Below, piece after piece: positions 25,545 to 49,564 of a stretch of 50,880 nucleotides of DNA. The translations under genes were made by a program, and so were the position numbers. The stretch lies in NCBI GenBank assembly GCA_019509785.1, contig JAEKLQ010000072.1, positions 1 through 50,880 on the forward strand, read 5' to 3'. The first letter of the stretch is position 1. The number at the start of each line of letters is the position of its first letter. The DNA comes from Fibrobacterota bacterium (GTDB lineage: Bacteria > Fibrobacterota > Fibrobacteria > UBA11236). A model generated the notes under the pieces. It was not told the origin of the DNA. It searched no databases and saw only the letters and a list, made by a program, of their open reading frames with translations.

Positions 25545-26543
25545 TCATCCCTGGCGCGGCTCGAAAGGGACGGCCCAGGAAGGGCTGGCCTTATCCCTAT
25601 TCGTATCCCCCCACTCGAGCTGATACTTATCCTGCAGGGTCTGGCGCCAGGCGGTTGCATCCGGTTTCTCCAGGCCGTAGACCTGCATTCCGAGTTGAAG
25701 CAGGAATCCCCAAACGGCTTCGGCCCGCAGAAGCGGTGGCGGCCCATCCGGATCCGGCCCGAATTCCTTGTAGAGCAGATGCAGGCGAAGGTCATTCCCT
25801 TCCTTGCTGCCGGGCAGGGGCGGCTGCCGATACTCGAAGGGCACGCGATAGAACCCCCGCTTTTCGAAGGCGGGCGCGGTACCGTCTTTGGGATCACATT
25901 CAATGAACCATCCCTTCGCCCCCATCCGGTCCCGGAGCATGGAATCCTCCACGGCGGAGATCAGGCCGGCAAGATGGCCTTTGCGGCGCTGATCGGGGCT
26001 TAGCGCCAAATAACCTCCGAATCCGAACCCGGGAAACGTAAAGAAGGAAACCATTCCGATGCTTCCGATATCGGGTTCGGCCGGATCCGAAACCGCGCAA
26101 AGGTGGTAGGCGCAGGTTTCGGTCTTATCATTCCGCTTTTTATTTCGTTCCCCCTGCTTGTCCAATGCCTTCGTGAATTCCTGCTTCGCAATCGAGGTCT
26201 GCGTCTTGCCCGCGAAGGCCTCCTCATAAATCCGCATGGAGGCGTTGAACGCCCCGTCCCCCGACGCCTGGCATTCGCGTAGCTTCATGCGGCTATGCGC
26301 CTGATCCAGGTACTCTCCGAACGAAACCAAAGGGACATTCGGGGACCGGGAAAGGCTTTTAGACATGAACTTATAGGCGTCTTCCATTTCAGGTTTCTCG
26401 ATCCGCATGGCCCAGAGCATATAGGCCTTGATAACCTCCCTTAGTCCGTCGACCTTGATGGACCCGTCCGTCTCCCAGAGGGCTCCCGCATTGGCAGCGC
26501 CCTCCCCCTGCATGCGTTTCGCCATGAGCAATAAATGCGTCAC
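25545..26543 (-). CDS. C-terminal piece of a split double-GNAT protein
   Basis: A 332-residue frame beginning with GTG. It starts in the middle of an acetyltransferase fold: THLLLMAKRMQGEGAANAGA is the helix that normally follows the acetyl-CoA loop, and that loop (KQGVGTKI) is in the overlapping gene. It then contains a second complete GNAT domain with FGGYLALSPDQRRKGHLAGL as its own acetyl-CoA motif (RRKGHLAG in place of R/QxxGxG/A) and FIECDPKDGTAPAFEKRGFYRV as motif B. No good ribosome site precedes the GTG. The natural reading is that this is the C-terminal third of one protein broken by a single-base shift near 26540. Confidence 0.6.
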   Translation of the reverse strand: MTHLLLMAKRMQGEGAANAGALWETDGSIKVDGLREVIKAYMLWAMRIEKPEMEDAYKFMSKSLSRSPNVPLVSFGEYLDQAHSRMKLRECQASGDGAFNASMRIYEEAFAGKTQTSIAKQEFTKALDKQGERNKKRNDKTETCAYHLCAVSDPAEPDIGSIGMVSFFTFPGFGFGGYLALSPDQRRKGHLAGLISAVEDSMLRDRMGAKGWFIECDPKDGTAPAFEKRGFYRVPFEYRQPPLPGSKEGNDLRLHLLYKEFGPDPDGPPPLLRAEAVWGFLLQLGMQVYGLEKPDATAWRQTLQDKYQLEWGDTNRDKASPSWAVPFEPRQG

Positions 26544-28455
26544 CTATTTTCGTCCCCACGCCTTGCTTACGCCATGCCGGATGTATGGCGAGGAATTCGA
26601 TAACTCCGGCATTGGGTTCCGCGAAGTAATCGCAGATTGAGACAGCGACGGGATTGCCTTGGTCCAACAAGGCCAACACATGATAATTGTTCCGTCCGTA
26701 CCAGCCGGATCTTTTTTTCACGAGGTAAGCGACGATGTTTTTCAACGACTCGCGCTCGTCGGGATCCGGAAACTCCTTCTCGTACAAATGCTTGTAAAGC
26801 TTGGACAGGAGACTGAGGTCGGCACGGCTCGCCTGGAATTCATGAGCTTCGAATTCCAGTCCGGCAGGGCGGGACACCTCTTTTCGCCCTATCTCTCTCT
26901 TGAACCGGCTGACCCACCCGGGAACATGGCACGCCGACAAGTCGCTCCCTCCCAACGGGGCATCCGGATTGACGCGTTTCCTGAGATCCTCATGCTCCTT
27001 ACGTTCCAAGATCATCCGCAAGTAGTGGCTGATCGTGAAGCCCGGGAAGCTATGGATTGGTTTGGACGCGCAACCCGTTTCGTCGATGGCGCAGACAAGG
27101 CGGCACCGGAAACGGGAATCGTTTTCTTGCGCTTGCTCCAGGAACCGGATGGTTTTCTCGGCCAACCTTTCCTTGAAAAAGGTAAATGCGCCTTCATCGA
27201 AGAGATTGGCATGCTCGTAGATGGGGATCAATCTCTGCCAAGGATCCGATGGCGGTATTCCTTCGGGCCATCGGGAAGATTCCGTGACTTCGAGCATCAG
27301 CCAGATGTAGGCCGAATAGTATCCGGATGAATCATTGGAACCAAGTGACCCCTTCTCCGCGTGGGTCACGTATTCCAGGAGCAGGCCGGATTCATCCGAA
27401 TCGAGTAAGGAGGATTGGGCGCGGGCCAGTTCCCCTTCGTCCATGCTTTCGCACCAGATGGGAACGCCGGTGAAGACGACGCGGGAGCCTAATGCCGGAC
27501 GGTGCGGTTTCGGGATCAGATCGGCCGTGGCACGTTCCATTTCCAGTTTCCCGAGCACGGAATTCCGCTTGGAGTAGGGAATGAACACCGGAAGGGAGTT
27601 GTTCTCGTCGCCATAACCGAATTGCATCGCGATGCCCCCCTGCCAGAGGTTACAAGTGCAAAGCGGGATGCTGGGCCCCCATAACAGCCACGTGTCCATG
27701 ATGAAACGGTTCACCATGGGACGGAAGTCCCCTTCACTAGAATCATACTGATCCAGGATGTGCTTCCAATCATCTTCGAAATGGGCCAATAATCCAGTGA
27801 CCAAGTGCAGCGGCATCAGATATCCGTCCGGAATCTTGACTTGGCAGAAAAAACGGCCGCGCTCCGGTTTCGTGAGGGGGGCGGCGGCAAAATGGAACAG
27901 GAAGCGGAGATAATTGCGGATCTCATCCTCGGCTTTGTAAAAGGCGAAGGTATTGGGCAAGGTGATGGTCGGCCGTTCATGGTCGGGGGTGTACGCCAAA
28001 CTGCGTAGTTCATCCCGGATCTCGCGTTTCCACTTCTTCAATTCAGCGGCATACTCCGAATTGATTTTCTCCTTGGTGGATGGATCGCGGCTGTTATCCT
28101 TGACGGGACGAGGCTTGAGGATTTCCAACTCCACGCGCAGCCGAACGACCCGGAACAGGCTATGATTGGCCAACAGCTGCATCGCGCATCCGAACATTTC
28201 CCATAGGACTTGCCACCACGGCGTGATCTTCTTGCTGTTTAGGCAATGGCGTAGGATCTGGAACGAGGGCCGGATTTGGTTGCGGAAAACAAAGGTCCCT
28301 CCTCCCAAGGCCAGAGATACTGGGAATATTGACCAGTAGTGTGCCCCGAAGTGCCATGTACCCTTCGCTAGATTCCAAAGGCTTTTCAAGATGTGCGCGA
28401 GGCCGTTCGGGATTTGCCGGACGATTTCCAGAAGTTTCAGGATTCGGTGCAGCAT
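26389..28455 (-). CDS. N-terminal piece of a split double-GNAT protein with a large unknown domain
   Basis: The start at 28455 follows GGGGAG by four bases. Residues 1-70 are hydrophobic or amphipathic (LHRILKLLEIV, WSIFPVSLALGGGTF), suggesting membrane association. Residues 100-520 are a large region I do not recognise. It includes YNP-free phrases such as GPSIPLCTCNLWQGGIAMQF and CRLVCAIDETG. From about residue 560 a GNAT domain begins (LSLLSKLYKHLYEKEF, then GVIEFLAIHPAWRKQGVGTKI). Directly after the acetyl-CoA loop KQGVGTKI the frame becomes arginine- and glycine-rich and ends after about 50 non-protein-like residues. Shifting by one base restores the fold in the frame of the next feature. 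Acceptor substrate unknown. Confidence 0.6.
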   Translation of the reverse strand: MLHRILKLLEIVRQIPNGLAHILKSLWNLAKGTWHFGAHYWSIFPVSLALGGGTFVFRNQIRPSFQILRHCLNSKKITPWWQVLWEMFGCAMQLLANHSLFRVVRLRVELEILKPRPVKDNSRDPSTKEKINSEYAAELKKWKREIRDELRSLAYTPDHERPTITLPNTFAFYKAEDEIRNYLRFLFHFAAAPLTKPERGRFFCQVKIPDGYLMPLHLVTGLLAHFEDDWKHILDQYDSSEGDFRPMVNRFIMDTWLLWGPSIPLCTCNLWQGGIAMQFGYGDENNSLPVFIPYSKRNSVLGKLEMERATADLIPKPHRPALGSRVVFTGVPIWCESMDEGELARAQSSLLDSDESGLLLEYVTHAEKGSLGSNDSSGYYSAYIWLMLEVTESSRWPEGIPPSDPWQRLIPIYEHANLFDEGAFTFFKERLAEKTIRFLEQAQENDSRFRCRLVCAIDETGCASKPIHSFPGFTISHYLRMILERKEHEDLRKRVNPDAPLGGSDLSACHVPGWVSRFKREIGRKEVSRPAGLEFEAHEFQASRADLSLLSKLYKHLYEKEFPDPDERESLKNIVAYLVKKRSGWYGRNNYHVLALLDQGNPVAVSICDYFAEPNAGVIEFLAIHPAWRKQGVGTKIGDAFIAHGETHAGGGRCQCGSPLGDGRVHQGRRTKGGYQGLYALGHADRET

Positions 28456-28521
28456 CGCGCTCCCCAGGTTTACAACGTGAGTTCCGTCTCGGGCCAGGCC
28501 CACAAAACTAATCGATTCCAA

Positions 28522-29074
28522 TTAATGCGAATGGGCAATCTACCTTCCGGTCGCCCCCCGTAGAGGATGGCGGCTCGATTTTTACTTGGTCCCATGGGTA
28601 GGTTCGTAGTGCTCCTCGCCCCGCGCGATGTAAATCGCCCCATCCGGCCCGGTAATCGATCGGAAGATAAAGGACAGCTCGCTACCGGGAACATCGCTTT
28701 GGAAAGGCCGGATCGAAATGCGCACAGGCTAATAGGTTGCCCAAGCATGCCCCGGCCCTGCGAGCGCTTTTTCCTTAGCCAGGGGGCTTGGCGGATGCAC
28801 CGGACGATCGCCCCGAAAGGGCTTCCTTCCCCCGAATATCATCGTCGAATATAGAGCCTGGTCGCCGGGAATAAAGGGTGCCACCGTGTCCTGGCCGTCG
28901 GAGCCGGAATCCGGGCGCCAGGGTTCGCTCTACGAGCGGAAATTCCGCGCAGGAGGAATCGGCCGCCATGCCACTGACATAATAAATGGCCACCACATAA
29001 AATGGTACTGTTTTTGTCCGTTTGACCCTTATAGGTTATCGCCGGTACCGAACGGTACGAACAAAGGAGTCCGC
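28522..29074. other. long intergenic region with few signals
   Basis: About 550 bases between the divergent GNAT and secreted-protein genes. It holds a perfect 13-base palindrome GCGGAAATTCCGC at 28936-28948, an A/T-richer stretch at 28978-29040 that is the likely promoter of the gene at 29075, and a direct repeat of CGGTACCGAA/CGGTACGAA just before its ribosome site. A 47-codon minus-strand frame is listed separately. No RNA gene is evident. Confidence 0.4.
28582..28725 (-). CDS. possible small protein or gene remnant, 47 residues
   Basis: A GTG-initiated frame whose translation looks protein-like, for example IRPFQSDVPGSELSFIFRS and GPDGAIYIARGEEHY, ending in TAA. There is no Shine-Dalgarno, and a stop codon lies two codons before the GTG. 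GPDGAIYI resembles the strand-turn phrase of beta-propeller sugar dehydrogenases, so it may be the surviving end of a lost gene. It is not a call I would rely on. Confidence 0.2.
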   Translation of the reverse strand: MRISIRPFQSDVPGSELSFIFRSITGPDGAIYIARGEEHYEPTHGTK

Positions 29075-29701
29075 ATGAACTGGTCCAGGTTGACGATATG
29101 TTCCGCGCTCGCGACCGTCTCACTCGGCGCATTGTCCGCCGAAGCGAAGGTCCTCTCCCATTTCAACGGGAATGGGGCCTTCGCCGACGCGTACTTCCAA
29201 GGCGACGGGGGAGGCAAGGATTATTCCAGCATCAATGTCACGCAAGGAGGCACCCATCAGGCTCCCGCGACCGATCTCAATTACTATGCGGCATTCTGCG
29301 ATACCGCGTCCACGATCTGTTCGGGCATATCGGGCAACGGCCAGATTCCCAACAAGGATTTCTCGGCCTCCGGCAAGAGCGCATCCCTTTCCACCAATAC
29401 GGCTTCGAATCAGAATTTCTACGCCGTAAAGTGGACGTACAACTACGCCACCCAGGAGTATTCGGAATCGCAAATCAATCTGGGGGTTATCGCCGTGAAT
29501 TGGAAATCCAGCGGGCTTTCCTCGTTCCGGTCCACCGGAACATCGACCAGCACCTACCTGAACACCACGTGGAAATCCACCGGCCAATCCAGCTACACGG
29601 ATGCCGCGGCTTCGGGAACGGTGGGCGGGACGCCCTTGAACGCCGCCGGCGGCAGCATCGGTACCAACTCCAACAACGACATCGTCATCGAACGCAATTG
29701 A
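29075..29701 (+). CDS. small secreted protein of unknown function
   Basis: A 208-residue protein. AAAGGAG five bases before the ATG at 29075 fixes the start. A signal peptide (SRLTICSALATVSLGALSAEA) precedes a mature chain that is rich in Ser, Thr, Asn and Gly and has two cysteines close together (FCDTASTICSG), probably a disulfide. There is no membrane segment. The composition (NTASNQNF, STGTSTSTYLNTTWKSTG) is typical of an extracellular beta-rich protein. It is not a family I recognise. The gene is isolated: a 550-base upstream region and a hairpin between it and the convergent kinase gene suggest a single-gene transcript. Confidence 0.65.
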   Translation: MNWSRLTICSALATVSLGALSAEAKVLSHFNGNGAFADAYFQGDGGGKDYSSINVTQGGTHQAPATDLNYYAAFCDTASTICSGISGNGQIPNKDFSASGKSASLSTNTASNQNFYAVKWTYNYATQEYSESQINLGVIAVNWKSSGLSSFRSTGTSTSTYLNTTWKSTGQSSYTDAAASGTVGGTPLNAAGGSIGTNSNNDIVIERN

Positions 29702-29752: not shown

Positions 29753-32128
29753 TCACGCAGGAACGCCCGTTCGACAAGCGCATGCCAACAGCGCCTCGCG
29801 CATCTGCGCCGATCGCGGGGGTTTGCTGAGCACGCGGAATACGTAGGGCGGGATTTCGCCTTCGGAAAGCATGCGTTGGCCCCAGCCGGTCAGGAGGATC
29901 ACGGGCGCGGAGGCCCGGGCCGCGTGGATGGCGGCGGCCACCTTGCGGCCGTCCACGTAGGGCATGCCCAAATCGGTTACGACCACCTCGAAGGGATTTC
30001 CGTTCGCCTCGTCGGCCTTGAAGGCGTCGATGCCCGCTTGCCCCCCATTGGCGGTGATTACCGTATGCCCATCACTGGACAGGATGTCGTACAGGGACTT
30101 GAGGAGCAACGGATCGTCGTCGATGACTAACATCCGCATGGGCGGCGGGAGGGTCGGGATCTTTCGCGCCGTTTCGGCGACCGGGGCGGCGGGAAGCGGG
30201 AAGAGAAGCCTGAAGGTGGTTCCGGCGCCCGGGGCGCTTTCGATTTCCACCTCCGCGTTATGGCGCTGCATGACGCCGTATACCATGGCCAACCCGAGAC
30301 CGGTGCCTCGTTCGCCTTTGGTGGTATAGAACGGCTCCAGGCAGCGCCTCCGCGTTTCCTCGTCCATCCCGGTGCCGGTGTCGGCCACTTCCAGCAGCAC
30401 CTGGCGATTGGGCCCCAGACAGGTCCGCAGGGTCAGGGCCCCTCCGTCCGGCATGGCGTCGAAGGCGTTGAAGAAAAGGTTGGTGAGGGCTTCGCGGACC
30501 TCGCCTTCGATGCCCATCACCACAGGCAGGTTTTCGCCTAGGAGGGTCTCGATGCGGATCACCGCCCCGCGTTGTTGCGGTATGTCATGCCAGCGCGCCC
30601 GGGTCAAATCGATGACCTGCTGCACGGCGAAGTTGAGCTGCACCGGGGAGAGTTCGGTTTCCGACGCCCGCACGCGGTGGAAGTCCCGCAGGCGCGCGAC
30701 GGTGGCCGCCACGTCGTCGATGGCATTGGAGATGATCTTGAGGAAGTCGCGCACACGGACGCTCAGGTTCGGCTCCTTTTCCAGGAGGAACTCGGTATAC
30801 AAGGTGACCGGAGAAATGGCGTTGTTGATGTCATGGGCGATGCCGCTGGCCATCTGTCCCAAGGCCCGCAAGCGTTCCTGCTGCATCACCGCCTGCTGGG
30901 ACTGCTTGATGTCCTCGTAGGCCTGGTGGAGGGCGCCGTAGAGGTTGGCTTGGTGGGCGGCCAGGCCGGCATGCTCGCTCACTTGCCTCAGGAATTCGCA
31001 CTCCATGCTGCTGAACTTCTCCGTCCCTTTGCGGGCGGCCACCAGCACGCCGAAAACCTGGCTTTCCACGATCAAGGGGGATAGCACCAGGGAATGGAGT
31101 CCTTGTCCGGCCAGGGCCTTGGGGAAAGGGAAGTCGACCCGGGAAATGTCCGGTTCGTAAACCAAGTGGCCTTGCACGCAGCGCGAGAGCCCGTTCTGAT
31201 CGAGGGGGATGGCGGTCCGGCCGGAGATCTTAAGGGCCAAGGCCGCGGGCGCGCTCTTGGCGCCGATCGCGGACACGTTCAGCGCTTGCGCCGCGGCATC
31301 GTATTGGCACACGCAAACGAAATCCACGGGCAGATCGTTTTCCACCGACCCGGCGATCACCTGGAAGATGCTGGCGAGGTCCAGCCTTTCGCCGATGGCG
31401 CGCGTGACGCGGTTCAGCAATTCCGTGCGGCCGATCTGCTCCTGGATCTGGTCCAGCATGCCGTTGAAGGAATCCGTCAGCAGACCCAGCTCGCCGGCCC
31501 CTTGCTTGGGAGCGCGCACCGAGTAATCCCTGCGCGTCGAGATTTCGCGGGCCGACTCCATCAGCCCCAGGATAGGCGCCGAGATGAGGCCCTGCAGGCC
31601 CTTAGAAAGGAGGTAGGCCAGCAGGAAGGCCACCGCGGCCGTCAATCCGGCCACCGTCGCGTACAGCCTGAGCCGCGCGTAAAACGCCTGCGTGTCCGAC
31701 TCGATATAGAGGGTACCCAGGCGACGTTTGCCTTGGACGATAGGCTGCAAGCCGACCAGATTGGCGGTACCGAAACGGAAACCGTCTTCGGAAGGCGCGT
31801 GGGGCAAGGCAGCGATGGGCAGATTTTCCGGATACGAGGAAAACAACTTCCCTTCCGCGTCGTATAGGGCCGCGGCCACGATGTGCGGCTCCGCTTTCAA
31901 GGCGGAGAGGATTTCCGCCGCGCCGCTCTTGTCATCGAAAGCGAGCACCGCCGTGCTGTTGTTGGCGACCAGCTTGGCGAGGGTCGTCAATTGCTGCACC
32001 ATTCCGCTCCGGAAGGTCACGAACTCATAGGTCGAGAACCCCAGGCAGGCGAGCGCCAGCACCGCCCCGCTCGTCAGGAGCATCATGAACATCAGTCTCC
32101 GCCGCAAGGGCATGTTCTTGAGGGGCAT
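29753..32128 (-). CDS. membrane hybrid histidine kinase with CHASE8 sensor: CHASE8-HAMP-GAF-HisKA-HATPase-REC
   Basis: The product is 791 residues. Helix 1 at about 12-35 and helix 2 at about 155-176 enclose a periplasmic CHASE8-type sensor (LAKLVANNSTAVLAFDD, AEILSALKAEPHIVAAALYDAEG). HAMP follows (APILGLMESAREIS), then GAF at about 235-395, HisKA with phosphoacceptor His432 in GIAHDINNAISP, HATPase with NLFFNAFDAMPDGG and GERGTGLGLAM, and a receiver from about 665 with the acceptor Asp in VVVTDLGMP. CHASE8 is the sensor domain of the diguanylate cyclase YfiN, whose activity is held down by periplasmic YfiR. Here the gene just upstream in the operon encodes a YfiR-like protein, so the kinase is the probable YfiR target. 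No output regulator is adjacent. Confidence 0.88.
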   Translation of the reverse strand: MPLKNMPLRRRLMFMMLLTSGAVLALACLGFSTYEFVTFRSGMVQQLTTLAKLVANNSTAVLAFDDKSGAAEILSALKAEPHIVAAALYDAEGKLFSSYPENLPIAALPHAPSEDGFRFGTANLVGLQPIVQGKRRLGTLYIESDTQAFYARLRLYATVAGLTAAVAFLLAYLLSKGLQGLISAPILGLMESAREISTRRDYSVRAPKQGAGELGLLTDSFNGMLDQIQEQIGRTELLNRVTRAIGERLDLASIFQVIAGSVENDLPVDFVCVCQYDAAAQALNVSAIGAKSAPAALALKISGRTAIPLDQNGLSRCVQGHLVYEPDISRVDFPFPKALAGQGLHSLVLSPLIVESQVFGVLVAARKGTEKFSSMECEFLRQVSEHAGLAAHQANLYGALHQAYEDIKQSQQAVMQQERLRALGQMASGIAHDINNAISPVTLYTEFLLEKEPNLSVRVRDFLKIISNAIDDVAATVARLRDFHRVRASETELSPVQLNFAVQQVIDLTRARWHDIPQQRGAVIRIETLLGENLPVVMGIEGEVREALTNLFFNAFDAMPDGGALTLRTCLGPNRQVLLEVADTGTGMDEETRRRCLEPFYTTKGERGTGLGLAMVYGVMQRHNAEVEIESAPGAGTTFRLLFPLPAAPVAETARKIPTLPPPMRMLVIDDDPLLLKSLYDILSSDGHTVITANGGQAGIDAFKADEANGNPFEVVVTDLGMPYVDGRKVAAAIHAARASAPVILLTGWGQRMLSEGEIPPYVFRVLSKPPRSAQMREALLACACRTGVPA

Positions 32129-32131
32129 GCT

Positions 32132-32701
32132 TCAGCCCTTTCCCGGTTCGACGATATCCGCCAGTCGCAGCAACTTGGAACTCACGGTGAGCTTGGCGGC
32201 GCGGACCGTCCCCACGTTGATCTGGAGGCGGATTTTGCCTTGCCGGGTGATGAGATCGATCATGCCCCCGCGCTTGGAGAATTCCCCCGAGTCCCCGACC
32301 GTCAGGATCATGCGGTCCTTCAAGGCGGCCGCCACCGTATCGAGCCGCCGGGAATCCGCTCCGCCTACGAAAAGCAGCTGGCAGTCCCGCGCCGAATCGA
32401 TGTCCCGGAAACGCTTGACGATGATGGGATGGCCGCCGGCCTTCTCCCCGCGCACCACGTCGTCGAGGTACTTGTCGAACGGATCCTGGCCGAGGATCCC
32501 GATGACCAAAGGCGCATCGGGCTTCGCGAAGGCATCCGCCGGCCAGTCGATGAATTGGGTGAAGTTGTAGAGGAATACGGCCTTGACCTGGTATTCCAAG
32601 ACGGGCGCCGGCGCGGCCACCGCTCCCCGGGCCAACGCCAGGAACAGGAGGAGCGGGCCCAAGGGTCCCGTTTGCCGCCATCCCCTGCTCAAAGGCGCCA
32701 C
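32132..32701 (-). CDS. YfiR-family (DUF4154) periplasmic protein
   Basis: A 189-residue protein with a signal peptide (hydrophobic stretch to about residue 29, ending VAA). The core has the family's start EYQVKAVFLYNFTQFIDWP, then LVIGILGQDPF, CQLLFVGG and ILTVGDSGEFSKRGGMIDL, ending with a conserved N/K-rich strand. YfiR proteins sit in the periplasm and repress a CHASE8-containing partner; in Pseudomonas that partner is the cyclase YfiN, with outer-membrane YfiB as the relief signal. In this operon the gene lies between a TonB receptor (13-base overlap) and a CHASE8 kinase (3-base gap). I infer it links receptor state to kinase activity. The redox-active cysteine pairs of Pseudomonas YfiR are not obvious here (one cysteine, in RDCQLL). 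Confidence 0.88.
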   Translation of the reverse strand: MAPLSRGWRQTGPLGPLLLFLALARGAVAAPAPVLEYQVKAVFLYNFTQFIDWPADAFAKPDAPLVIGILGQDPFDKYLDDVVRGEKAGGHPIIVKRFRDIDSARDCQLLFVGGADSRRLDTVAAALKDRMILTVGDSGEFSKRGGMIDLITRQGKIRLQINVGTVRAAKLTVSSKLLRLADIVEPGKG

Positions 32702-34656
32702 GCCACCTTACCGGAAACCGAGCGGGGGATTTCCTCGCGTTGCGGGCCGGATCCGAACTCGGGATCATGGTCGTCGGCGAGATCGCGCCCGTACACGGAC
32801 GCTTCCAAGCCGCGGTGGCGCCAAACGAGCCCGGCGCTGTAATTCATCCTCGGCTGCACGTGCGGGTCGGGCAGGCTGCTCACGTAATACCCGGATACGT
32901 TCACCTCGAACCCCGCGGGCAGATCCAGCATGGATTGGAGGGAGAACTGATGCGCCGGATCATTCCATTTCCCGAACGGTATCTCCAGATCGGTATGCCC
33001 CGATTTTTGCCACACGTCGCTTTCCATGTAGGTGTATCCGCCCCGCAACTTCCACCAACTGGCGGCTTGGAAATCCCCCGAGACCTCCGCGCCCCGGGAA
33101 TCCGCGTCCAACCCGTTGCGGAACTCCAGGCCCAGATTGGGGACGTCGGCGAATTCGAGCGACCTTAATCCGTCGTATTGGTTGTAGAAGGCGGCCAAGG
33201 AAAGGGAAAGCCTTGGCATGGGTTGCACCCGGTATCCGAGCTCATACGCCAGGAGCCCCTCGGAATCGAAGTCCGGGCCGCCGGCATAATGGAGCGTAGG
33301 GGCGGCGTAAGGGGGCGTCGGAGCGAAGAACTCCACGTCGATCCGGCTGGGCGTGCGGACGGCCCGGGACACCGCGCCCCACAAGGTCTGCCGGGCATCG
33401 GGCGACAAGGCGATCCGTGCCGAAGGCTGGAGATTGAATCCGGAATATTCCTCATGCTCCAGCTTGGTGCCCAAGGTGAGCTTCACGCGCCGGGACAGGA
33501 GCGCGATCTCGTCCTGGACGAAAGCGTTGAAGCGGCTCAGATCCTTTTCGGCGGGGAGGAAGGAAAAATACGGAACGTTCCCCACCTCGTCCTGCATCCA
33601 TCGGTACCCCGCTCCCCACATGACATTCTGCCGGCTCCCGAGCGGAAAGCGGTGATGGAAATCGAAATCGTACGTCTTAAGCTCATCCGTAAACGCGACC
33701 GCTGGCGTGAAAACGGCCTTCCGCCAGGTGCGATCGAAGTAAACCTGGGCTTGCAGATCCGACTCAGGCGAGAAAGCGTGCGTCCAGTTGGCGAGAACGT
33801 CCTGCCCATTGAGGTCGGTTTCGCCCGGGCCCGGCGACTGGAAATCCGAGCCGTACATGTCCCCCTGCACCATGAAGCCGTCCGCTTCCGAACGTCGCCA
33901 ATCCATGCGGAAGCCGCCCTGGCTCAAGGCCGAGGGCTCGTGGGTATCCTTCCCCCCGGCATTCACCAATCCGTCGCGATCGGCATGACTCCCGTAAATG
34001 CGATAGAAAAGGTTGCCCGTCTTGCCACCCGAGCGGGCCTCCCCGAAATCCCTGAGCAGGCTGCCTCCGCCGCCCGCGAGATACAACCCTTGGGTTTCCT
34101 CCGCCGACTTGGTTACGATGTTGATCACCCCATTGACGGCATTGCTTCCCCATAGGGTGCCGCCCGGGCCGCTGATGACTTCGATCCTGTCCACATCCTC
34201 CAGGAGCACATGTTGGGCATCCCAGAAGACGCCTGAGTACAGCGGCGTGTACACCGTGCGGCCGTCGATCATGACCAGCAGTTTGTTGGCGAAAGTGGCA
34301 TTGAAACCGCGCGCGCTGATGGCCCATTCCCGGGTACTCAACTGGGCCACTTGCAGATTGGAGGCCAGGCGCAGGGCTTCCGGTAGTGAGGTCGCCCCGG
34401 AACGGCGGATATCTTCCCGGGTGATGACCTGCACGGCGGATGCGGCTTCATTCAGGTTTTCGGGCCGCTTGGATACCGAGGTGATCTCGAGATCCATCAG
34501 TTCTTCCAGGCTCATCTTTTTCAAATCGCCTGTGGAGAGGGATGAGCCGTCTCCGCCTCGGACGGCGCTTATCGCCAGGGCGATGGCCGTTAGCGCGATC
34601 CTTCCCGGGAATAGGTATCGATAGGCTCTATCCACGCTCTTCCCCTTGGGCGCCAT
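32689..34656 (-). CDS. TonB-dependent outer-membrane receptor
   Basis: A 655-residue protein with GGGGAAT before the ATG and a signal segment (PGRIALTAIALAISAVRG). The N-terminal plug begins with MSLEELMDLEITSVSKRPE, typical of a receptor subgroup that lacks a classical TonB box, then AASAVQVITREDIRRSG, WAISARGFNATFANKLLVMI, and RIEVISGPGGTLWGSNAVNG. The barrel half ends in the aromatic beta-signal-like terminus (VSGKVAWRL). Ligand class cannot be read; receptors in this layout are often colicin-I-receptor/CirA-like. It is first in the operon with YfiR-like and CHASE8 kinase genes, so the receptor may report ligand binding to the kinase via the periplasm. Confidence 0.9.
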   Translation of the reverse strand: MAPKGKSVDRAYRYLFPGRIALTAIALAISAVRGGDGSSLSTGDLKKMSLEELMDLEITSVSKRPENLNEAASAVQVITREDIRRSGATSLPEALRLASNLQVAQLSTREWAISARGFNATFANKLLVMIDGRTVYTPLYSGVFWDAQHVLLEDVDRIEVISGPGGTLWGSNAVNGVINIVTKSAEETQGLYLAGGGGSLLRDFGEARSGGKTGNLFYRIYGSHADRDGLVNAGGKDTHEPSALSQGGFRMDWRRSEADGFMVQGDMYGSDFQSPGPGETDLNGQDVLANWTHAFSPESDLQAQVYFDRTWRKAVFTPAVAFTDELKTYDFDFHHRFPLGSRQNVMWGAGYRWMQDEVGNVPYFSFLPAEKDLSRFNAFVQDEIALLSRRVKLTLGTKLEHEEYSGFNLQPSARIALSPDARQTLWGAVSRAVRTPSRIDVEFFAPTPPYAAPTLHYAGGPDFDSEGLLAYELGYRVQPMPRLSLSLAAFYNQYDGLRSLEFADVPNLGLEFRNGLDADSRGAEVSGDFQAASWWKLRGGYTYMESDVWQKSGHTDLEIPFGKWNDPAHQFSLQSMLDLPAGFEVNVSGYYVSSLPDPHVQPRMNYSAGLVWRHRGLEASVYGRDLADDHDPEFGSGPQREEIPRSVSGKVAWRL

Positions 34657-35102: not shown

Positions 35103-35138
35103 CTTCAGCTTCTCTTTAGCTTCTCTTCAGCTTCTTGA
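35103..35138. repeat. short tandem repeat at the 3' end of the cupin copy-2 gene
   Basis: AGCTTCTCTT-like units of about ten bases occur three times in a row, spanning the stop codon at 35116-35118. The repeat looks like a slippage expansion that placed the stop one codon later than in the paralog at 14068. Confidence 0.55.
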
Positions 35139-36375
35139 ACGCGCCGGTATCGGGAGCGTTCGGGCAGGAATCGGGGCCGAAGTAACGCAGAATTACCAAC
35201 GGCTCGCTGCCGGTGTTCTCGTAGGTGACGCCCTGGGTCGCGGCATCGTAGGACACGAAGGCTTCGTCCTCCGTCATCGCGCCGAAGCGGATCATGGACG
35301 GGCTCTGCATGCGTACCTTGCCCACCCGGCCCACGCCCTGCACGCAGGTCGCGCCGTAAGCGCCGCCATCTTTAATGGTCGCCTTCACGCCGGGCATCAC
35401 GGTCGTTTCCTTGGCGGTGAACAGCTCCTGGCCGTCGAACTTCCCGTAGGTCACCCACTTGTCCATCCAGCCTTCCGATTCCGAATCGGCGACGGGGATG
35501 GGTTCCAGGTAATGGTGATCGCGGAAATGCGTATCCAGGTTGCCTTCCCAATCGAGCTGATCGACCAGGAAGTCCAGGTCGAAGCGGCGCTCGGGGGGGA
35601 AATCCTTGGCCAGCAATTCCCACTCGATGGCCCGGCCTTCCACCATGCTCTGGTAGTAGGCGAACACGTCCGAGCCCCACTGGGGTTCGTAGGTCACCAT
35701 GGAACCGGGCGCATGCAGGATGCGCGCGGGCACGTGCCAGCCGGTGCCGGGCTTGAGGCGGTAGGCCTTGGCCAAATCGATGAGGCCGTTATCGCCCTTG
35801 TTCCAATCCTCCAGGCAACGGCGCACGTCGGACTTGGTAACCCCGGGTTCGAGCCCGAAATAGGTATGCGGGAAGTTGTTCCCGATGGCGTTCAATTGTG
35901 GCGGGAAATAATAGCCCTCGGGCTTGCCTTCGCGGCCCACGGCCTTGGCCTGGTCCGCGCTCTGGTGCATGTGATGGGCGATGGGGCCCATGTTATCGAA
36001 GAACTTGGAGTACACGGGCCAACGCTTGTACTTGTCCCACATCTTCTTGCCGATGAGGGAGACGCCTTCGCCGGCGACGGCTTCGAGCAGGGTGAAGCGG
36101 GTGCCTTCATGTACGACGTAGGAAAGGCCTTCGTCGGCGGCGCGGTTCTCGTTGCCCGCCTCGGTGGTGGAAGCGAACCAGCGCTCGCAGATGCCGCCGC
36201 GATGGGCGCCGAGCGCATAGATGTCGTCGGGATGGAGCTTGATGCGGCGGCCCGGGACCATGAAGGAACGGGGCACCCAGCAAGGCGCCAGGCGCAGGAC
36301 GCCCTCACCCGCTTCGAGCGCACCTTTGACATTGATTTTTTTACCCGTAGCCGGGATGGCGACTGCCTCTGACAT
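35116..36375 (-). CDS. cupin/phosphomannose-isomerase-like protein, copy 2
   Basis: A 419-residue close paralog of the product of 14068-15351. The shared blocks run almost end to end: RLAPCWVPRSF, PGRRIKLHPDD, GAHRGGICERWFASTTEAGN, KMWDKYKRWPVYSKFFDNMG, then HHMHQSADQA in place of HHMHHNEEQA, and TYFGLEPGVTKSDVRRC. The loss of one histidine in that cluster, and the shorter linker before the C-terminal half, may reflect a change of metal or substrate. It has AGGGGAA upstream of the ATG, a palindrome farther upstream and a strong terminator after it, so it is a single-gene transcript. Its substrate is unknown; the operon context of copy 1 suggests sugar isomerisation. Confidence 0.6.
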   Translation of the reverse strand: MSEAVAIPATGKKINVKGALEAGEGVLRLAPCWVPRSFMVPGRRIKLHPDDIYALGAHRGGICERWFASTTEAGNENRAADEGLSYVVHEGTRFTLLEAVAGEGVSLIGKKMWDKYKRWPVYSKFFDNMGPIAHHMHQSADQAKAVGREGKPEGYYFPPQLNAIGNNFPHTYFGLEPGVTKSDVRRCLEDWNKGDNGLIDLAKAYRLKPGTGWHVPARILHAPGSMVTYEPQWGSDVFAYYQSMVEGRAIEWELLAKDFPPERRFDLDFLVDQLDWEGNLDTHFRDHHYLEPIPVADSESEGWMDKWVTYGKFDGQELFTAKETTVMPGVKATIKDGGAYGATCVQGVGRVGKVRMQSPSMIRFGAMTEDEAFVSYDAATQGVTYENTGSEPLVILRYFGPDSCPNAPDTGAFKKLKRS

Positions 36376-36440
36376 GATGATGATTCCCCTTAATTAGAAT
36401 GGCCGACCGGACCTGCGAAGTACCGGACGCGAACATCCAA

Positions 36441-36459
36441 CATGCTTTATTGGAGCATG
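36441..36459. promoter_or_regulatory. inverted repeat upstream of the cupin copy-2 gene
   Basis: CATGCT (36441-36446) and AGCATG (36454-36459) form a perfect six-base inverted repeat with a seven-base spacer, 66 bases before the start codon at 36375. It could be an operator or a leader hairpin. Confidence 0.35.
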
Positions 36460-36555
36460 GGACGCTGGGGATAAATTGCAAACTTCCTTGACCGAACCGT
36501 AATCCGGTATTTCTATAGGCCTTTATGCCGGCGGCCGGCGGCCTAAAATCCACCC

Positions 36556-37749
36556 TCAGTCGTGCAGGAAACCCCAATCCACGGGGATCCGTACGGTTTT
36601 CCCGCCGCTGCCCTCGGCCCAAACATGGCCCCCGTCGGGATCCTTTTCGATCCGTTCCACCCGCCCGAAGGATTTGGGAACCGGGTGGACCAGGTGGATG
36701 ACGCGGATGGATTTGGGCTCCTTGGGCCGGAACGATTGTGTGGTGGGAACGCCCTGGGCCTTGAGACGATCCTGACGCGAGGTTTCCAGGCCGTCGCAGA
36801 AATGCGAACAGACCTCTTCCAGCCCGAGACGGTCCACATGGCGGCCGTTCCAAGGCGCGGCGTGGCGGCCGCCATTGGAGATCCAGAACAGGGTGCTGGG
36901 CAAAGTGCGCGGATCTTTAAGGGACAACCAGACGTAGCCGTCCAGGGTCGCCGCGGTCCAGGCCAAGTCGCCGGCTTTGGAGGAGACCATGATCAAATCC
37001 TCGAAGCCGCGGCGGGCGGGATAGAGTCGCAGGTCCGTGGTCCCTCCGGTGGCCAGCGGCACCTTGCCCAGGGATTTGAAACGGGCCCCGGTCTTAAGGA
37101 TGCCGTACTCGCGGGCCAAGGGATTGGAGAAGGCCTCCGGCTTCACGCTGCCGAACTTGAAGGGGCTGACGTTGACATGATAGGGCCCGCCCGTTTCCGG
37201 AAAACGGAGGACGGCATGGTGCCCGAAATTGTAACGCCCCTGCAAGCCCTCGATGCGATGCTCCAGGTAGACCGCCCGATGCCCATCGCGGATGCTGAGC
37301 GTCTTACGGATCGTGCAGGCGGGATTTTTCAACCTCATCTCTGTGACTAGGCGCGCCGTTCCCGCTTCCACCGCCTCCCAGGTTTCATTGGCCGTCTCGC
37401 CATGCCCATAGCGGATGCCTTTGCTTTCCCCGAATGGGAAGCAGAAATAATCGCCGCGCAGGACTTGTAGCACCGGGGGGAATTCCGGCAGCTCGTCCGG
37501 CCGCCAAGGGGCCAAGGCGTAAGGCTCCACCCAACGTTTGCCCAGGCGGAAACGCACCGGCCCCATATGGCCGCCGCGGCGGGTCAGCCACAGCTCCACG
37601 TCGCGGCCCTGTAGCGCGAAGGAGGGTTCCCCGTACACGACCGGCAGATCATCGTGGGTCATTTCGGCGATGGAGGTGTCCAGGGAAAGGGGATCGGAAT
37701 GCTCCCCGATCCGGGGTCCGGTTTTCAAGGCGGCTTGCGGGTCGTCCAT
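36556..37749 (-). CDS. aldose-epimerase-like (galactose-mutarotase-fold) protein
   Basis: A 397-residue cytoplasmic protein with no signal peptide. The N-terminal strand pattern (GEPSFALQGRDVELWLTRRGGHMGPVRF) and later YFCFPFGESKG, VYLEHRIEGLQGRYNFGHHAVLRFPE and a long second half rich in beta strands match the beta-sandwich of galactose-mutarotase-like proteins. The histidines in NFGHHAVLR are at the place where the family has its catalytic pair. I do not see a clear assignment to a single subfamily, and DUF4432-type proteins are another possibility. It is divergent from the vapBC operon. A TATTAT box nine bases before the ATG suggests a short or absent leader, and there is no Shine-Dalgarno. 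A later ATG at 37662 is a less likely start. Confidence 0.6.
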   Translation of the reverse strand: MDDPQAALKTGPRIGEHSDPLSLDTSIAEMTHDDLPVVYGEPSFALQGRDVELWLTRRGGHMGPVRFRLGKRWVEPYALAPWRPDELPEFPPVLQVLRGDYFCFPFGESKGIRYGHGETANETWEAVEAGTARLVTEMRLKNPACTIRKTLSIRDGHRAVYLEHRIEGLQGRYNFGHHAVLRFPETGGPYHVNVSPFKFGSVKPEAFSNPLAREYGILKTGARFKSLGKVPLATGGTTDLRLYPARRGFEDLIMVSSKAGDLAWTAATLDGYVWLSLKDPRTLPSTLFWISNGGRHAAPWNGRHVDRLGLEEVCSHFCDGLETSRQDRLKAQGVPTTQSFRPKEPKSIRVIHLVHPVPKSFGRVERIEKDPDGGHVWAEGSGGKTVRIPVDWGFLHD

Positions 37750-43282: not shown

Positions 43283-45931
43283 TTAGGTGTTACGCTTGCG
43301 CCGTCGTTTCGCGGGCGCCCCGGATGCCGAAGCCGCCTTTTCCGCGGCGCGGGAGCGACGGCCCGCAGTCGCCTTTCGCGGCGCTCTACCTACGGTGTTG
43401 CCGGTCGTTTTGCCGGTAGTCGGTTCATCGCCCTCCGGGCTGACGGCCTTCCCAAGGGCTCCGCCCTTGGGCCCCAACACCAACTGGGCCGGAAGCAATT
43501 CCCGTAGGATGGGATCGATATGCTCGAATTGGCTGATGGTCAGGCTGGCCTTGGCTTCGGGAGGGAGCTCCCCTACGTCGGCGGCGTTCTCGGCAGGCAA
43601 CACCACCCTCACGACCCCGGCCTGCAGGGCGGCCAAGGACTTTTCCGGCAGACCCCCGATGGCATGGATGCGCCCGACCAGGGAGATCTCGCCGGTGAAT
43701 GCGATTTTGGGATCGACCGCGCGGCGCGTCATGGCCGAGATGAGGGCCAGGGTCATGGCTATTCCCGCCGAAGGGCCGTCCTTGGGGATCGACCCTTCGG
43801 GCACATGCAGATGGATATCCGTCTTCTGGAAGATTTCCGGATCGATGCCGTAACGGCGGGCGCGCTCTCGCGCCAGGGTCACAGCGATGCGGGCCGATTC
43901 CTTCATCACCTCGCCCAGATGCCCGGTGAGATGCAGGTGCCCCTTGCCGGAAAGCAGGGTGCACTCGACCCGCAGCAACTCGCCGCCCGCCGGGGTCCAG
44001 GCCAACCCGGTGATGACGCCGGGACGCACCTTGTCGGGCACCATGCGCTCTTGCCGCAGGGGCACGCCCAGATAGCCGGCCAGGCTATCGCGGGTGAGGG
44101 CCGGAAGGCCTTTTCGCTTGGCGGCCCCGCCCTTCGCGGCCGCCCGGCCTTCCGAGGCCGCCCGGCCGCCTGCGGACGCCGCTTCCTTCCAATCCACCAC
44201 TTCGCGCGCGCGCTTGCGGGCGATCTTGGCGATTTGCCGCGACAACTGCCGCACGCCCGCCTCCCGGGTGTAGCGGCGGATAAGGGCGGAAAGCACGTCG
44301 TCCCGGAGTTCCATCTGCCGCACGGTAAGGCCCGAGGCGGCCTGGATCTTCGGGAGCAGGTGGCCCTTGGCGATGGCCAGCTTTTCGGTATCGAAATAGC
44401 CGGCGATGCGGATGACTTCAAGGCGATCGTGGAGGGCGGGCGGGATCTGCTCTTCCACGTTGGCGGTGGTCACGAAGAAAACCTGCGACAAGTCGATGCC
44501 CGCTTCCATGAAATGATCGATGAACTCGGCGTTCTGTTCCGGGTCCAGCACCTCCAGCAAGGCCGAAGCGGGGTCGCCGCGGAAATCGCTCCCCATCTTG
44601 TCGAGCTCGTCCAGCAGGATGACCGGGTTCATCGATTGCGCCTTCTTGAGGGCCTGCACGATGCGGCCGGGCATGGACCCGATGTAGGTGCGGCGATGCC
44701 CCCGGATCTCGGCTTCGTCACGGACCCCGCCGAGCGAGATACGCACGAACTCCCGGCCCAAGGCCAGGGCGATGGACTTGCCGAGCGAGGTCTTGCCCAC
44801 GCCCGGCGGGCCCACCAGGCACAGGATCGGCGTCGCGCGATGGCGCGAAAGCTTGAAGACCGCCACGTGTTCGAGGATGCGCTCCTTCACCGGCTTGAGG
44901 CCGAAATGATCCTGATCGAGGCGCGCCTTCACGCCCGCCAAATCCAGGTTGTCCGGCGTGCAATGGCCCCAGGGCAGCGCCAGGAACCAATCCACGTAGG
45001 TGCGCACCACGGAATATTCCGGCGAGGACGGATTCAAGTACTCGAGGCGCTTCATCTCCGCGGTAACCCGCTCCAGCGCCTTGGCGGGAAGGCTCTTGGC
45101 CTTGATGCGTTCTTCCAGTTGCCGGTTCTCGTGGTTGAGCGGCGGGGAAAACGAACCCAGCTCGGACTGGATCTTGCGCAATTGCTCGCCCAGGAAGTAT
45201 TCGCGTTGGCTCTGCGCGATGCCGGCCCGCACCTCATGCTCCAGGCGGCGGCCCAAGGCGGCCGTATCCATCTCGTTGCGAAGGAACTCGTGGAGCAGAT
45301 CCAGCTTGCGATCCAGGGAGGGCTCCTCCACCAGGAGCTGTTTCATCTCCACCGGGATTTTGAGATGGCCCGCCATCGCGTAGACCCGTTCGTCAGGACC
45401 TGACAACCCGTCGATCAGGTCGGCTACGCCCCGCGGCAGATCGGGATTCTGGCCCAGGTATTCGGAGAAGAGCGAACGCGTGATCTGGAGGCGACGCGAT
45501 ATGGCTTGCGCATCGAAGGGCATCGCCGGCATGGGTTCGAGCGCCGCCTCGATGAGATTGGGCGACACCTTCCATTCCGCGGCCCGCGCCGGGCCGACCG
45601 CCTCGACCAGCACCTTGGACAGGTTGTTGGGCAGGGACTGCGAAGACGCGATGCGCCCGACCACGCCCACGGGCTTGAGGCTTTCGGGATTCACCTCGTC
45701 CTCGGAGGCCGACTTTTGCAGGGCGAAAAAGGCGAATTGCTGCTGGCTTTCCAAGGCCCGCATCAGGGCGGACAAGGATTGGGGACGGCCCAGCAGGATG
45801 GGGGTCACGGTTCCCGGGAACAGGATGATGTCCCGCAACGGTATGACCGGCAGGCCGGCGGCCAGGTGGCGCGCCCATTCTTCGGGAGACATTTGGCCGG
45901 GGGCTGCGGGTTCGGTCTTGGCTTCGTCCAC
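43283..45931 (-). CDS. lon: ATP-dependent protease Lon
   Basis: An 882-residue LonA. The N-terminal substrate domain starts LPVIPLRDIILFPG. The AAA+ module has Walker A GPPGVGKT at 374-381 and Walker B ILLDELDK near 438-445. The protease domain carries Ser721 in KDGPSAG and Lys764 in LPEKSLAAL, the catalytic dyad. The start is a GTG at 45931; an ATG at 45892 is the alternative. Unusual parts are an Ala/Gly/Arg-rich insert (about 583-608) between the AAA lid and the protease domain, and a basic low-complexity tail of 50 residues after residue 830 that normal LonA lacks. Lon degrades misfolded and regulatory proteins in the cytoplasm. It follows clpX by 72 bases. Confidence 0.97.
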   Translation of the reverse strand: MDEAKTEPAAPGQMSPEEWARHLAAGLPVIPLRDIILFPGTVTPILLGRPQSLSALMRALESQQQFAFFALQKSASEDEVNPESLKPVGVVGRIASSQSLPNNLSKVLVEAVGPARAAEWKVSPNLIEAALEPMPAMPFDAQAISRRLQITRSLFSEYLGQNPDLPRGVADLIDGLSGPDERVYAMAGHLKIPVEMKQLLVEEPSLDRKLDLLHEFLRNEMDTAALGRRLEHEVRAGIAQSQREYFLGEQLRKIQSELGSFSPPLNHENRQLEERIKAKSLPAKALERVTAEMKRLEYLNPSSPEYSVVRTYVDWFLALPWGHCTPDNLDLAGVKARLDQDHFGLKPVKERILEHVAVFKLSRHRATPILCLVGPPGVGKTSLGKSIALALGREFVRISLGGVRDEAEIRGHRRTYIGSMPGRIVQALKKAQSMNPVILLDELDKMGSDFRGDPASALLEVLDPEQNAEFIDHFMEAGIDLSQVFFVTTANVEEQIPPALHDRLEVIRIAGYFDTEKLAIAKGHLLPKIQAASGLTVRQMELRDDVLSALIRRYTREAGVRQLSRQIAKIARKRAREVVDWKEAASAGGRAASEGRAAAKGGAAKRKGLPALTRDSLAGYLGVPLRQERMVPDKVRPGVITGLAWTPAGGELLRVECTLLSGKGHLHLTGHLGEVMKESARIAVTLARERARRYGIDPEIFQKTDIHLHVPEGSIPKDGPSAGIAMTLALISAMTRRAVDPKIAFTGEISLVGRIHAIGGLPEKSLAALQAGVVRVVLPAENAADVGELPPEAKASLTISQFEHIDPILRELLPAQLVLGPKGGALGKAVSPEGDEPTTGKTTGNTVGRAPRKATAGRRSRAAEKAASASGAPAKRRRKRNT

Positions 45932-45973
45932 GCCCCAGAATGTAGGAAAGTGGTCAGGCGAGTTTGGAAGCTA

Positions 45974-46016
45974 GCGGAAACCGGCTACGCCAACGGAAAC
46001 TGGCTAGGCCAGTTTC
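45974..46016. repeat. 19-base tandem repeat and palindrome at the clpX stop
   Basis: GCGGAAACCGGCTACGCCA (45974-45992) and ACGGAAACTGGCTAGGCCA (45993-46011) are tandem copies with four differences. GAAACTGGC (45996-46004) and GCCAGTTTC (46008-46016) also form a perfect nine-base stem that covers the clpX stop codon. It may slow or end transcription between clpX and lon. Confidence 0.45.
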
Positions 46017-47260
46017 TTCTTGTTCTTCTTGAGGATGAGCATCGGTTCCTTCTTTTGCTCGACCATCTCGCGGGTGACCACGCATTCGGCCACGTCGCTC
46101 CGCGAAGGCAATTCGAACATGATGGGAAGCAGGACGCTTTCCATCACCGAGCGCAGGCCGCGGGCGCCGGTCTTGCGCTTGATGGCCCGGTCGACGATGG
46201 CCTCCAGGGCCTCGGGCTGGAACTTCAGGCGGATCTCGTCCATCTCGAAGAGACGGGTGTATTGCTTCACCAGGGCGTTCTTGGGCTTGGTGAGGATCTC
46301 GAGCAAGGCCTCGCGGGGAAGCTCTTCCAAGGCGGTGATGACCGGCAAGCGGCCGACCAGCTCGGGAATGAGCCCGAATTGGATCAAGTCATCCGGCTCC
46401 ACTTGCTTGAGGGTCTCGCCGATCCGGCGTTCTTTTTTGCTTTGGATGATCGCGCCGAAACCGAGGCCGGTCTCGCGGGTGCGCCGCTCGATGATCTTCT
46501 CCAGCGATTCGAAGGCGCCGCCGCAGATGAACAGGATGTTCTTGGTGTTGATCTGGATCAGGTTCTGCTCGGGATGCTTGCGGCCGCCCTTGGGCGGTAC
46601 CGCCGCTACCGTGCCTTCCAGCAACTTCAAAAGCCCCTGCTGCACGCCCTCGCCCGACACGTCGCGGGTGATGGAGGGATTGGCGCTCTTGCGCGAGATC
46701 TTGTCGATCTCGTCGATGTAGACGATGCCGCGCTCGGTGAGCTCCACGTCGTAGTCGGCCGCCTGCAAGAGGCGCACGATGATGTTCTCCACGTCCTCGC
46801 CCACGTACCCGGCCTCGGTGAGGATGGTCGCGTCCACGATGGTGAAAGGGACCTTGAGGAACTTGGCGATGGTCTGCGCCAACAGCGTCTTGCCCGAGCC
46901 GGTGGGGCCGAGGAAGAGGATGTTGGATTTTTCCACTTCCACGCCGTCCGGGCCCTGCCGGGCCGAGATGCGCTTGTAGTGATTGTAGACGGCCACCGCC
47001 AGGGAGATCTTGGCGTCATCCTGGCCGATGATGTGATCGTCCAGGTGGCGCTTGATGTCGGCGGGGTTGGAAGCCGGAGAGGCCCCCGGGGCCGTCTGCA
47101 CGTCCTTCTGGGATTCCTCGGTCAGGATGTCGTTGCACATCGCCACGCATTCGTTGCAGATGTGCACCGAGGGACCCGTAATGATCTTCTCCACCTGCTC
47201 CGCGTTCTTTCCGCAGAAAGAGCAGCGGATCAACCCATAGCCATTGCCGGTCCTTGCCAT
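46004..47260 (-). CDS. clpX: ATP-dependent Clp protease ATP-binding subunit ClpX
   Basis: A 418-residue AAA+ unfoldase of normal length. The N-terminal zinc-binding domain has cysteines at 13, 16, 35 and 38 ([14 protein letters not shown]). Walker A GPTGSGKT is at 118-125. Walker B (VYIDEIDKI), the pore loop region and sensor residues follow, and [16 protein letters not shown] near the C-terminus is usual for the family. ClpX feeds ssrA-tagged and other substrates into ClpP. It lies 27 bases downstream of clpP, and lon follows; this is the conserved tig-clpP-clpX-lon order. Confidence 0.97.
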
Positions 47261-47287
47261 TCGAATCCTTTACGTCGCGCCCGGCCC

Positions 47288-47893
47288 TTAGGCCGCCAGG
47301 GCCTTCTTCTTGCGATTGCCGGGGATGAAGATTTCGTCCACGACGCCGTAGGCCATAGCCTCCTGCGCGCTCATGTACAAGTCGCGTTCGGTGTCCTTCT
47401 GGACCACGTCGATGGGCTTGCCGGTGGCTTCCGCGAGGATGCCGTTCAGCTCCCGCTTGGTCTTCACGATTTCCTTGGCGTGGATCTGGATATCCGAGCT
47501 CTGCCCGGTGGCGCCTCCCGAGGGCTGGTGCAGCATGACCTTGCCGTGGGGCAGGATGAAGCGTTTCCCCTTGGTGCCCGCCGCCAAAAGCAGCGCGCCC
47601 ATGGAGAAGGCCGAGCCCACGCAGATGGTCTGCACGTCCGGCTTGACCCACTTGATCACGTCGTAGATGGCAAGTCCCGAGGTGACGATGCCGCCGGGGC
47701 TGTTGATGTAGAGGAGGATGTCCTTATCCGGATCTTCATACTCGAGGAAGAGCATCTGGGCCACGACGGTGTTCGCGACCACATCGTTGATCTCCTGGCC
47801 CAGGAATATGATGCGCTCCTTGAGCAGGCGGGAGTAGATGTCATAAACCCGCTCCGAGCGTCCGGTGGTTTCGATGACTGTGGGTACTAGCAT
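47288..47893 (-). CDS. clpP: ATP-dependent Clp protease proteolytic subunit ClpP
   Basis: A 201-residue serine protease subunit. I use the ATG at 47893 ([10 protein letters not shown]), the standard ClpP beginning; the frame extends upstream only as non-conserved sequence. The triad is Ser97 in VGSAFSMGA, His122 in VMLHQPSGG and Asp171 in DTERDLYM, with the exact spacing of characterised ClpP proteins. Phe replaces the more common Ala before the serine (GSAFSMG for GxAASMG). It forms the proteolytic barrel for ClpX. A 240-base space containing a long inverted repeat separates it from tig. Confidence 0.97.
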
Positions 47894-48020
47894 GCGCGTC
47901 CTGTCTTCCTCGAGGTGGAAATGGGATTTACGGTAATATACATAGCTCCATTCTACCTTCGGCACAAGCCGGAAGCCAGGGTGAATGAGACCGGTATCCT
48001 ATCGGCAAGGAGACCCGAGG

Positions 48021-48130
48021 GAAGGGTAAAGGGTACAGGGTAAAGTGTATGGCGGCGCTGCGCGCCGGTGGGTCGATCGGTCTCCGATCTAAACCCTTTA
48101 CCCTGTACCCTTAACCCTTTACCCTTCTTC
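48021..48130. repeat. long inverted repeat of GGGTAAA/TTTACCC units between tig and clpP
   Basis: The left arm (48021-48045) is built of GGGTAAA/GGGTACA heptads. The right arm (about 48089-48130) is its reverse complement except for one extra seven-base unit (CCCTTAA type). A GC-rich segment of about 45 bases with its own small hairpin separates the arms. In the tig-clpP transcript it would fold into a stem of about 25 base pairs, and its G-rich strand carries several GGG runs. Confidence 0.75.
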
Positions 48131-48133
48131 CTA

Positions 48134-49381: not shown

Positions 49382-49564
49382 GGGATCATCCTTTCGATTC
49401 GATTTCCTGAGGCCTTCGCTGACGGCCCGTCCGGTTGTGGCGGGCGGCCGCGCTAGGCGGTTTCTGCTCGTTATCTCTGTCTGCCCGTTCCTGCGGGCGG
49501 CCCGCGTTCTGCGGGTTGCCTGGCTTCGCGAGCCATCGGCATGGGCCGGGGTCCGCGGAAAAGG

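Follow-up and report, generated by a model that had tools for sequence, protein, structure and literature searches.

The window analysed here, a stretch of DNA 50,880 nucleotides long, contains a minus-strand operon of three genes, for a TonB-dependent receptor, a YfiR/DUF4154 protein and a hybrid kinase (Table 1). The best explanation for this operon, and in our judgement a probable one, is that it belongs to a widespread TonB-YfiR-CHASE8 input cassette wired to a hybrid kinase, with YfiR setting the activity of the kinase and the receptor changing the state of YfiR. The arrangement of the three genes is not new, being a recurring and already catalogued signalling cassette; the interesting part of the locus is the putative receptor-to-kinase wiring within this known arrangement.

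Table 1. Positions in the window of the three genes, their junctions and the domains they encode
Feature	Positions	Strand	Remarks
TonB-dependent receptor gene	32689-34656	-	655 aa; NF053590 (TOL_0244 family)
Plug domain of receptor, aa 69-177	34126-34452	-	Pfam, 7.8e-20
Overlap of TonB gene end and YfiR gene start	32689-32701	-	13 bases, read from sequence
YfiR/DUF4154 periplasmic protein gene	32132-32701	-	189 aa, GTG start; NF053591 (TOL_0243 family)
Gap between YfiR and kinase genes	32129-32131	-	3 bases, read from sequence
Hybrid sensor histidine kinase gene	29753-32128	-	791 aa; NF053592 N-terminal domain (HK near YfiR-like)
CHASE8 periplasmic sensor domain, aa 42-142	31703-32005	-	56.4 bits, cut-off 27
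TAVLAF, aa 59-64	31937-31954	-	Corresponds to AAVVF, YfiR-contact motif of YfiN; alignment, PMC3375315
HAMP linker, aa 181-230	31439-31588	-	Pfam
GAF domain, aa 250-390	30959-31381	-	Pfam
HisKA, phosphoacceptor H432	30668-30862	-	Pfam
HATPase_c	30191-30502	-	Pfam
Receiver domain, C-terminal, phospho-acceptor D719	29789-30130	-	Pfam

A recurring three-gene cassette

The open reading frames and the sequence at the two junctions agree to the base with the preliminary description of three tightly coupled genes. The next large gene on the same strand upstream of the receptor is about 460 bases away and the gene beyond the kinase is convergent and unrelated, and therefore the unit consists of these three genes. 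The convergent gene (28886-29701, plus strand) encodes a secreted-looking product with no Pfam match, and neither of the two roughly 400-aa ORFs that precede the operon (35116-37749, minus strand) has one. Elsewhere in the window, a 710-aa ORF (26389-28521, minus strand) combines a C-terminal GNAT acetyltransferase domain with a long N-terminal part without assignment, and the genes for Lon, ClpX and trigger factor, all on one strand (43283-49690, minus), make up an ordinary protein-quality cluster.

Each of the three proteins falls into one of three families of NCBIfam release 20 that together cover a TonB/YfiR/kinase trio. The receptor scored 739.7 bits against NF053590 (curated cut-off 645), the YfiR protein 166.7 bits against NF053591 (curated cut-off 125) and the N-terminus of the kinase 234.8 bits against NF053592 (curated cut-off 194). 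The window YfiR also matches Pfam DUF4154 with 150 bits (cut-off 24.9); against NF053586, the sequestration-type YfiR family, it reached 28.1 bits and stayed below the cut-off of 85. The Pfam domain order of the kinase is CHASE8-HAMP-GAF-HisKA-HATPase_c-Response_reg, all above cut-off, with the catalytic residues intact in the kinase part (H432 in GIAHD, the N box at 550, DTGTG at 583 and GTGLGL at 608) and in the receiver (D670-D672, D719, T747 and K769). The GAF domain is rare among relatives beyond the genus. An AlphaFold model of the kinase N-terminus (pLDDT 92.4) has the form of a Cache/PAS sensor on a two-helix membrane anchor and resembles WalK, CitA and DctB in structure comparison; the Pfam score bears out the earlier assignment of the sensor to CHASE8.

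The trio was seen in at least five phylum-level groups. The YfiR family is present in 15 of 168 genomes of the group to which the window belongs, whose make-up tentatively suggests Fibrobacterota, and in 32 of 80 genomes of the group around G339, 8 of 45 around G372, 23 of 298 around G228 and 5 of 7 around G265, each time with trios present, and alphaproteobacterial plasmids of Sphingobium indicum and Indioceanicola profundi carry one trio each. The window's own genome has four DUF4154 genes; a second complete trio lies on contig 36, and contig 34 carries a TonB-REC-YfiR-CHASE8 kinase variant. Among 110 distinct YfiR loci with enough flanking sequence, 65 have TonB directly upstream together with CHASE8 directly downstream; TonB occurs anywhere in the neighbourhood of 96 and CHASE8 in that of 93, the CHASE8 share being slightly inflated since the loci were recruited mostly by the YfiR family and partly by CHASE8. 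By a rough estimate, chance alone would place TonB directly upstream in far fewer than 1% of cases, and therefore the arrangement does not reflect chance.

Some TonB-YfiR pairs have no CHASE8 protein nearby, and some YfiR-CHASE8 pairs have no visible TonB. In two Nitrospinaceae loci with TonB-YfiR pairs (L005 and L006) no CHASE8 protein was found, and the gene downstream in L005 is convergent and encodes a class III cyclase-HD protein. A lone receiver or REC-PAS-kinase gene lies between TonB and YfiR in L028 (4394-4774), L041, L044, L045 and L046. On a plasmid of Pseudoalteromonas sp. HL-AS1 (L080, 9077-10045), an IS30-family transposase gene separates the TonB receptor region from YfiR and the receptor is split over two reading frames, so that the receptor part of this copy is probably defective.

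YfiR and the CHASE8 sensor

Control of the kinase by the window YfiR is a well-supported prediction from sequence comparison. The N-terminus of the protein is signal-peptide-like, and its AlphaFold model (pLDDT 92.5) finds as its best PDB matches the solved YfiR structures (TM 0.65-0.76), followed by substrate-binding proteins, one of them L-Trp-bound. In the periplasmic domain of YfiN, contact with YfiR has been placed on a conserved AAVVF motif (PMC3375315), and a similar motif, TAVLAF, is found in the kinase, where F64 aligns with the Phe of EAAVVF in E. coli DgcN. In the proposed YfiN-contact patch of YfiR, F151, E163 and I169 are replaced by I148, Q160 and V166 in the window protein, which counts against the proposed binding, as does the loss of the fold disulphide C145-C152.

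F64 was kept in 92 of the 95 CHASE8 proteins with an adjacent YfiR, compared with 8 of 12 that pass the Pfam CHASE8 cut-off but have no linked YfiR, so that this residue is partly a family hallmark. Where no YfiR is linked and a DUF4154 gene is present elsewhere in the genome, F64 is found in 6 of 7 proteins; in genomes without any DUF4154 gene it is found in 2 of 5 (p 0.001 against the adjacent set), a comparison that, with small numbers, related sequences and incomplete genomes, amounts to support short of proof. Two close relatives of the YfiR-associated kinases from genomes without DUF4154, L161 (G345, above the NF053592 cut-off) and L174 (G301), have Ser in place of F64. A first control for F64 (8/31, p 2e-15) was dropped as the main argument in favour of the stricter set of 12, because several of its members belong to other Cache-type families or fall below the Pfam CHASE8 cut-off.

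One locus (L030, 4361-6730, contig 133 of G156) encodes a natural fusion of DUF4154 with a hybrid kinase (HisKA-HATPase-REC), the two parts being linked by a coiled-coil-like stretch and a membrane helix, with no CHASE8 domain, and a TonB receptor gene adjoins. This fusion bears on the alternative that YfiR never touches the kinase, in which CHASE8 itself would bind a small ligand and YfiR would act as a chaperone or scavenger. The likeness of the sensor model to the ligand-binding Cache/PAS sensors CitA and DctB is consistent with such a reading, as is the retention of F64 in two thirds of the CHASE8 proteins without linked YfiR, but it is at odds with the fusion, with the loss of F64 from the proteins of G345 and G301, two genomes that lack DUF4154, and with the genetic suppression data that link YfiR to YfiN (PMC3375315), and we consider it very improbable. 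In the mechanism that we prefer, YfiR would bind the CHASE8 domain around F64, on the surface that in YfiN carries AAVVF, and would so set the activity of the kinase, as its homology to the YfiR-YfiN pair and the comparative evidence suggest. The kinship with YfiR-YfiN that had been proposed from family knowledge is upheld by the match of the YfiR model to solved YfiR and by a contact motif that is largely kept when YfiR is present.

Inheritance of the input unit and the place of the receptor

Judged from sequence distances, TonB, YfiR and CHASE8 are an inherited input unit with a swapped output. We measured co-inheritance as the correlation of pairwise distances across 46 complete trios and obtained r values of 0.89 for YfiR-CHASE8, 0.86 for TonB-CHASE8 and 0.78 for TonB-YfiR; the corresponding values for the HATPase domain were 0.42 with YfiR, 0.53 with TonB and 0.55 with CHASE8, which lies on the same chain. 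Bootstrap intervals for the correlation differences (0.31-0.63 and 0.19-0.47) exclude zero. TonB and YfiR thus track CHASE8 far better than they track the HATPase domain, so that the inherited unit ends midway along the kinase and the output is exchanged. Co-inheritance within an operon is no proof of contact; it does show the receptor, YfiR and CHASE8 to be inherited together, in line with their earlier depiction as linked parts.

Plain kinases, hybrid kinases and kinase-REC-Hpt chains (L159 and L170) are all found as outputs on the same input, and in Caballeronia and Pseudoalteromonas the TonB-YfiR-CHASE8 part is kept with a GGDEF-EAL output. Receivers or REC-kinases adjoin in L155, L156, L171 and the f7 family, which points to phosphorelays. 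In the window, phosphate from the kinase would pass to its own receiver and from there to an Hpt protein or response regulator encoded elsewhere, a route that fits the fused Hpt or adjacent receivers of its relatives. The preliminary description had proposed a relay to a phosphorelay and not to cyclic-di-GMP; the exclusion of cyclic-di-GMP is overstated and only partly right, for although the sensor in the window feeds directly into a hybrid kinase, the same input also occurs on GGDEF-EAL enzymes elsewhere.

That the receptor acts on YfiR is plausible. Pfam finds only Plug and barrel matches in the receptor and no N-terminal STN signalling domain. A conserved N-terminal motif, SLEELMDLEITSVSKR, was considered as YfiR-specific and rejected, being present also in receptors without YfiR; given this and the missing STN domain, nothing in the receptor sequence points to a part devoted to binding YfiR. 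Among solved structures, the nearest to it in sequence are the colicin I receptor, ferric enterobactin receptors and BtuB, the receptor for vitamin B12, which do not single out one ligand. No fusion of a receptor with YfiR was found among the loci examined, and the apparent outer-membrane-YfiR fusions suggested by long frames at L106 and L107 turned out to be spurious N-terminal extensions. TonB receptors of the same genus also adjoin two-component genes without YfiR. At L256, L258 and L260, apparent CHASE8 kinases beside TonB genes were rejected because their match is confined to the C-terminal part of the model, towards HAMP.

The receptor would alter the state of YfiR. Import of a ligand that is then sensed by YfiR would be the likeliest way, ahead of retention of YfiR at the outer membrane in the manner of YfiB. 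We tentatively rank ligand import first because the YfiR fold resembles substrate-binding lobes and because L-Trp and vitamin B6 are bound in crystals of P. aeruginosa YfiR (PMC4887326). Direct replacement of YfiB by the receptor, which would sequester YfiR at the outer membrane and free or capture it through ligand occupancy or TonB action, with no need for a ligand to reach YfiR, appears rather unlikely: the position of TonB as the outer-membrane gene of the trios, its tracking of CHASE8 history and the overlapping YfiR surfaces contacted by P. aeruginosa YfiB and YfiN (PMC4887326) would all suit it, but the receptor carries neither STN nor any further added domain, its N-terminal motif is not peculiar to YfiR-linked receptors, and receptor-YfiR fusions did not turn up.

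Another possibility is that the receptor is no more than a target or a co-regulated neighbour, and that YfiR and the kinase on their own sense the state of the envelope or its redox state and control the expression of the uptake gene. In favour of this, P. aeruginosa YfiR has been described as a YfiB-independent redox sensor (PMC3375315), and receptors of the same genus lie beside two-component genes without YfiR. Simple co-regulation, however, does not require the history of TonB to follow CHASE8 so much more closely than the catalytic domain (0.86 against 0.53). The fold disulphide C145-C152 is also absent from the window YfiR, which has S142 and D149 in those alignment columns. Of the four cysteines in the P. 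aeruginosa protein it retains a single one, C107, which corresponds to C110 in the second pair, so that control through a redox-sensitive disulphide is unlikely for this protein. We regard the neighbour reading as unlikely as a whole, and return to ligand import sensed by YfiR as the preferred role of the receptor.

More generally, and with some doubt on our part, a TonB receptor lacking STN may signal through soluble YfiR as an adaptor to a histidine kinase, which would constitute a further general route for TonB receptors beside FecA-FecR and SusCD-linked hybrid systems, present in several phyla and with exchangeable outputs (kinases or c-di-GMP enzymes). If the receptor does inform the kinase through YfiR, many bacteria would share an unstudied route from the uptake of scarce nutrients to a phosphorelay or a c-di-GMP response, and the receptor could be the stand-in for YfiB in many YfiR systems that lack it. 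With one residue, F64, and YfiR as a small soluble protein to work on, this signalling model is testable.

Comparison with known systems

The proteins of the window are members of the NCBIfam trio NF053590/NF053591/NF053592 and differ from it in nothing of kind; the family name of the kinase already records the association with YfiR, and the extra GAF domain is what sets the window kinase apart. Replacement of GGDEF by kinases and loss of YfiB were likewise published in 2012, when Malone et al. reported divergent YfiNR operons that lack YfiB and have kinase, Hpt, GGDEF-EAL or MCP outputs, and suggested an older module in the YfiR-YfiN PAS/HAMP core (PMC3375315). The window operon shares with these systems YfiR, a YfiN-like sensor, a histidine kinase output and the lack of YfiB, and differs in that the receptor is shown here as a third co-inherited part; TonB is absent from the main text of that paper (PMC3375315), and in the open literature, subscription papers aside, we found no paper linking TonB receptors with YfiR and kinases.

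With YfiBNR of P. aeruginosa and YfiR-DgcN-YfiB of E. coli, the window has in common the YfiR fold, a CHASE8-HAMP membrane sensor, an AAVVF-like motif and the order of YfiR followed by CHASE8. It differs from YfiBNR in its output, a hybrid kinase (HisKA, HATPase_c and receiver) standing where GGDEF would be and no cyclase being present, in the lack of the YfiR disulphides, and in having a TonB receptor upstream where YfiBNR has the OmpA/Pal-like lipoprotein YfiB, which the window operon does not encode. With FecA-FecR it shares a TonB receptor in the outer membrane that is presumed to signal to the inner one; in place of the STN domain, FecR and sigma factor of that system, the window has a periplasmic protein and a kinase.
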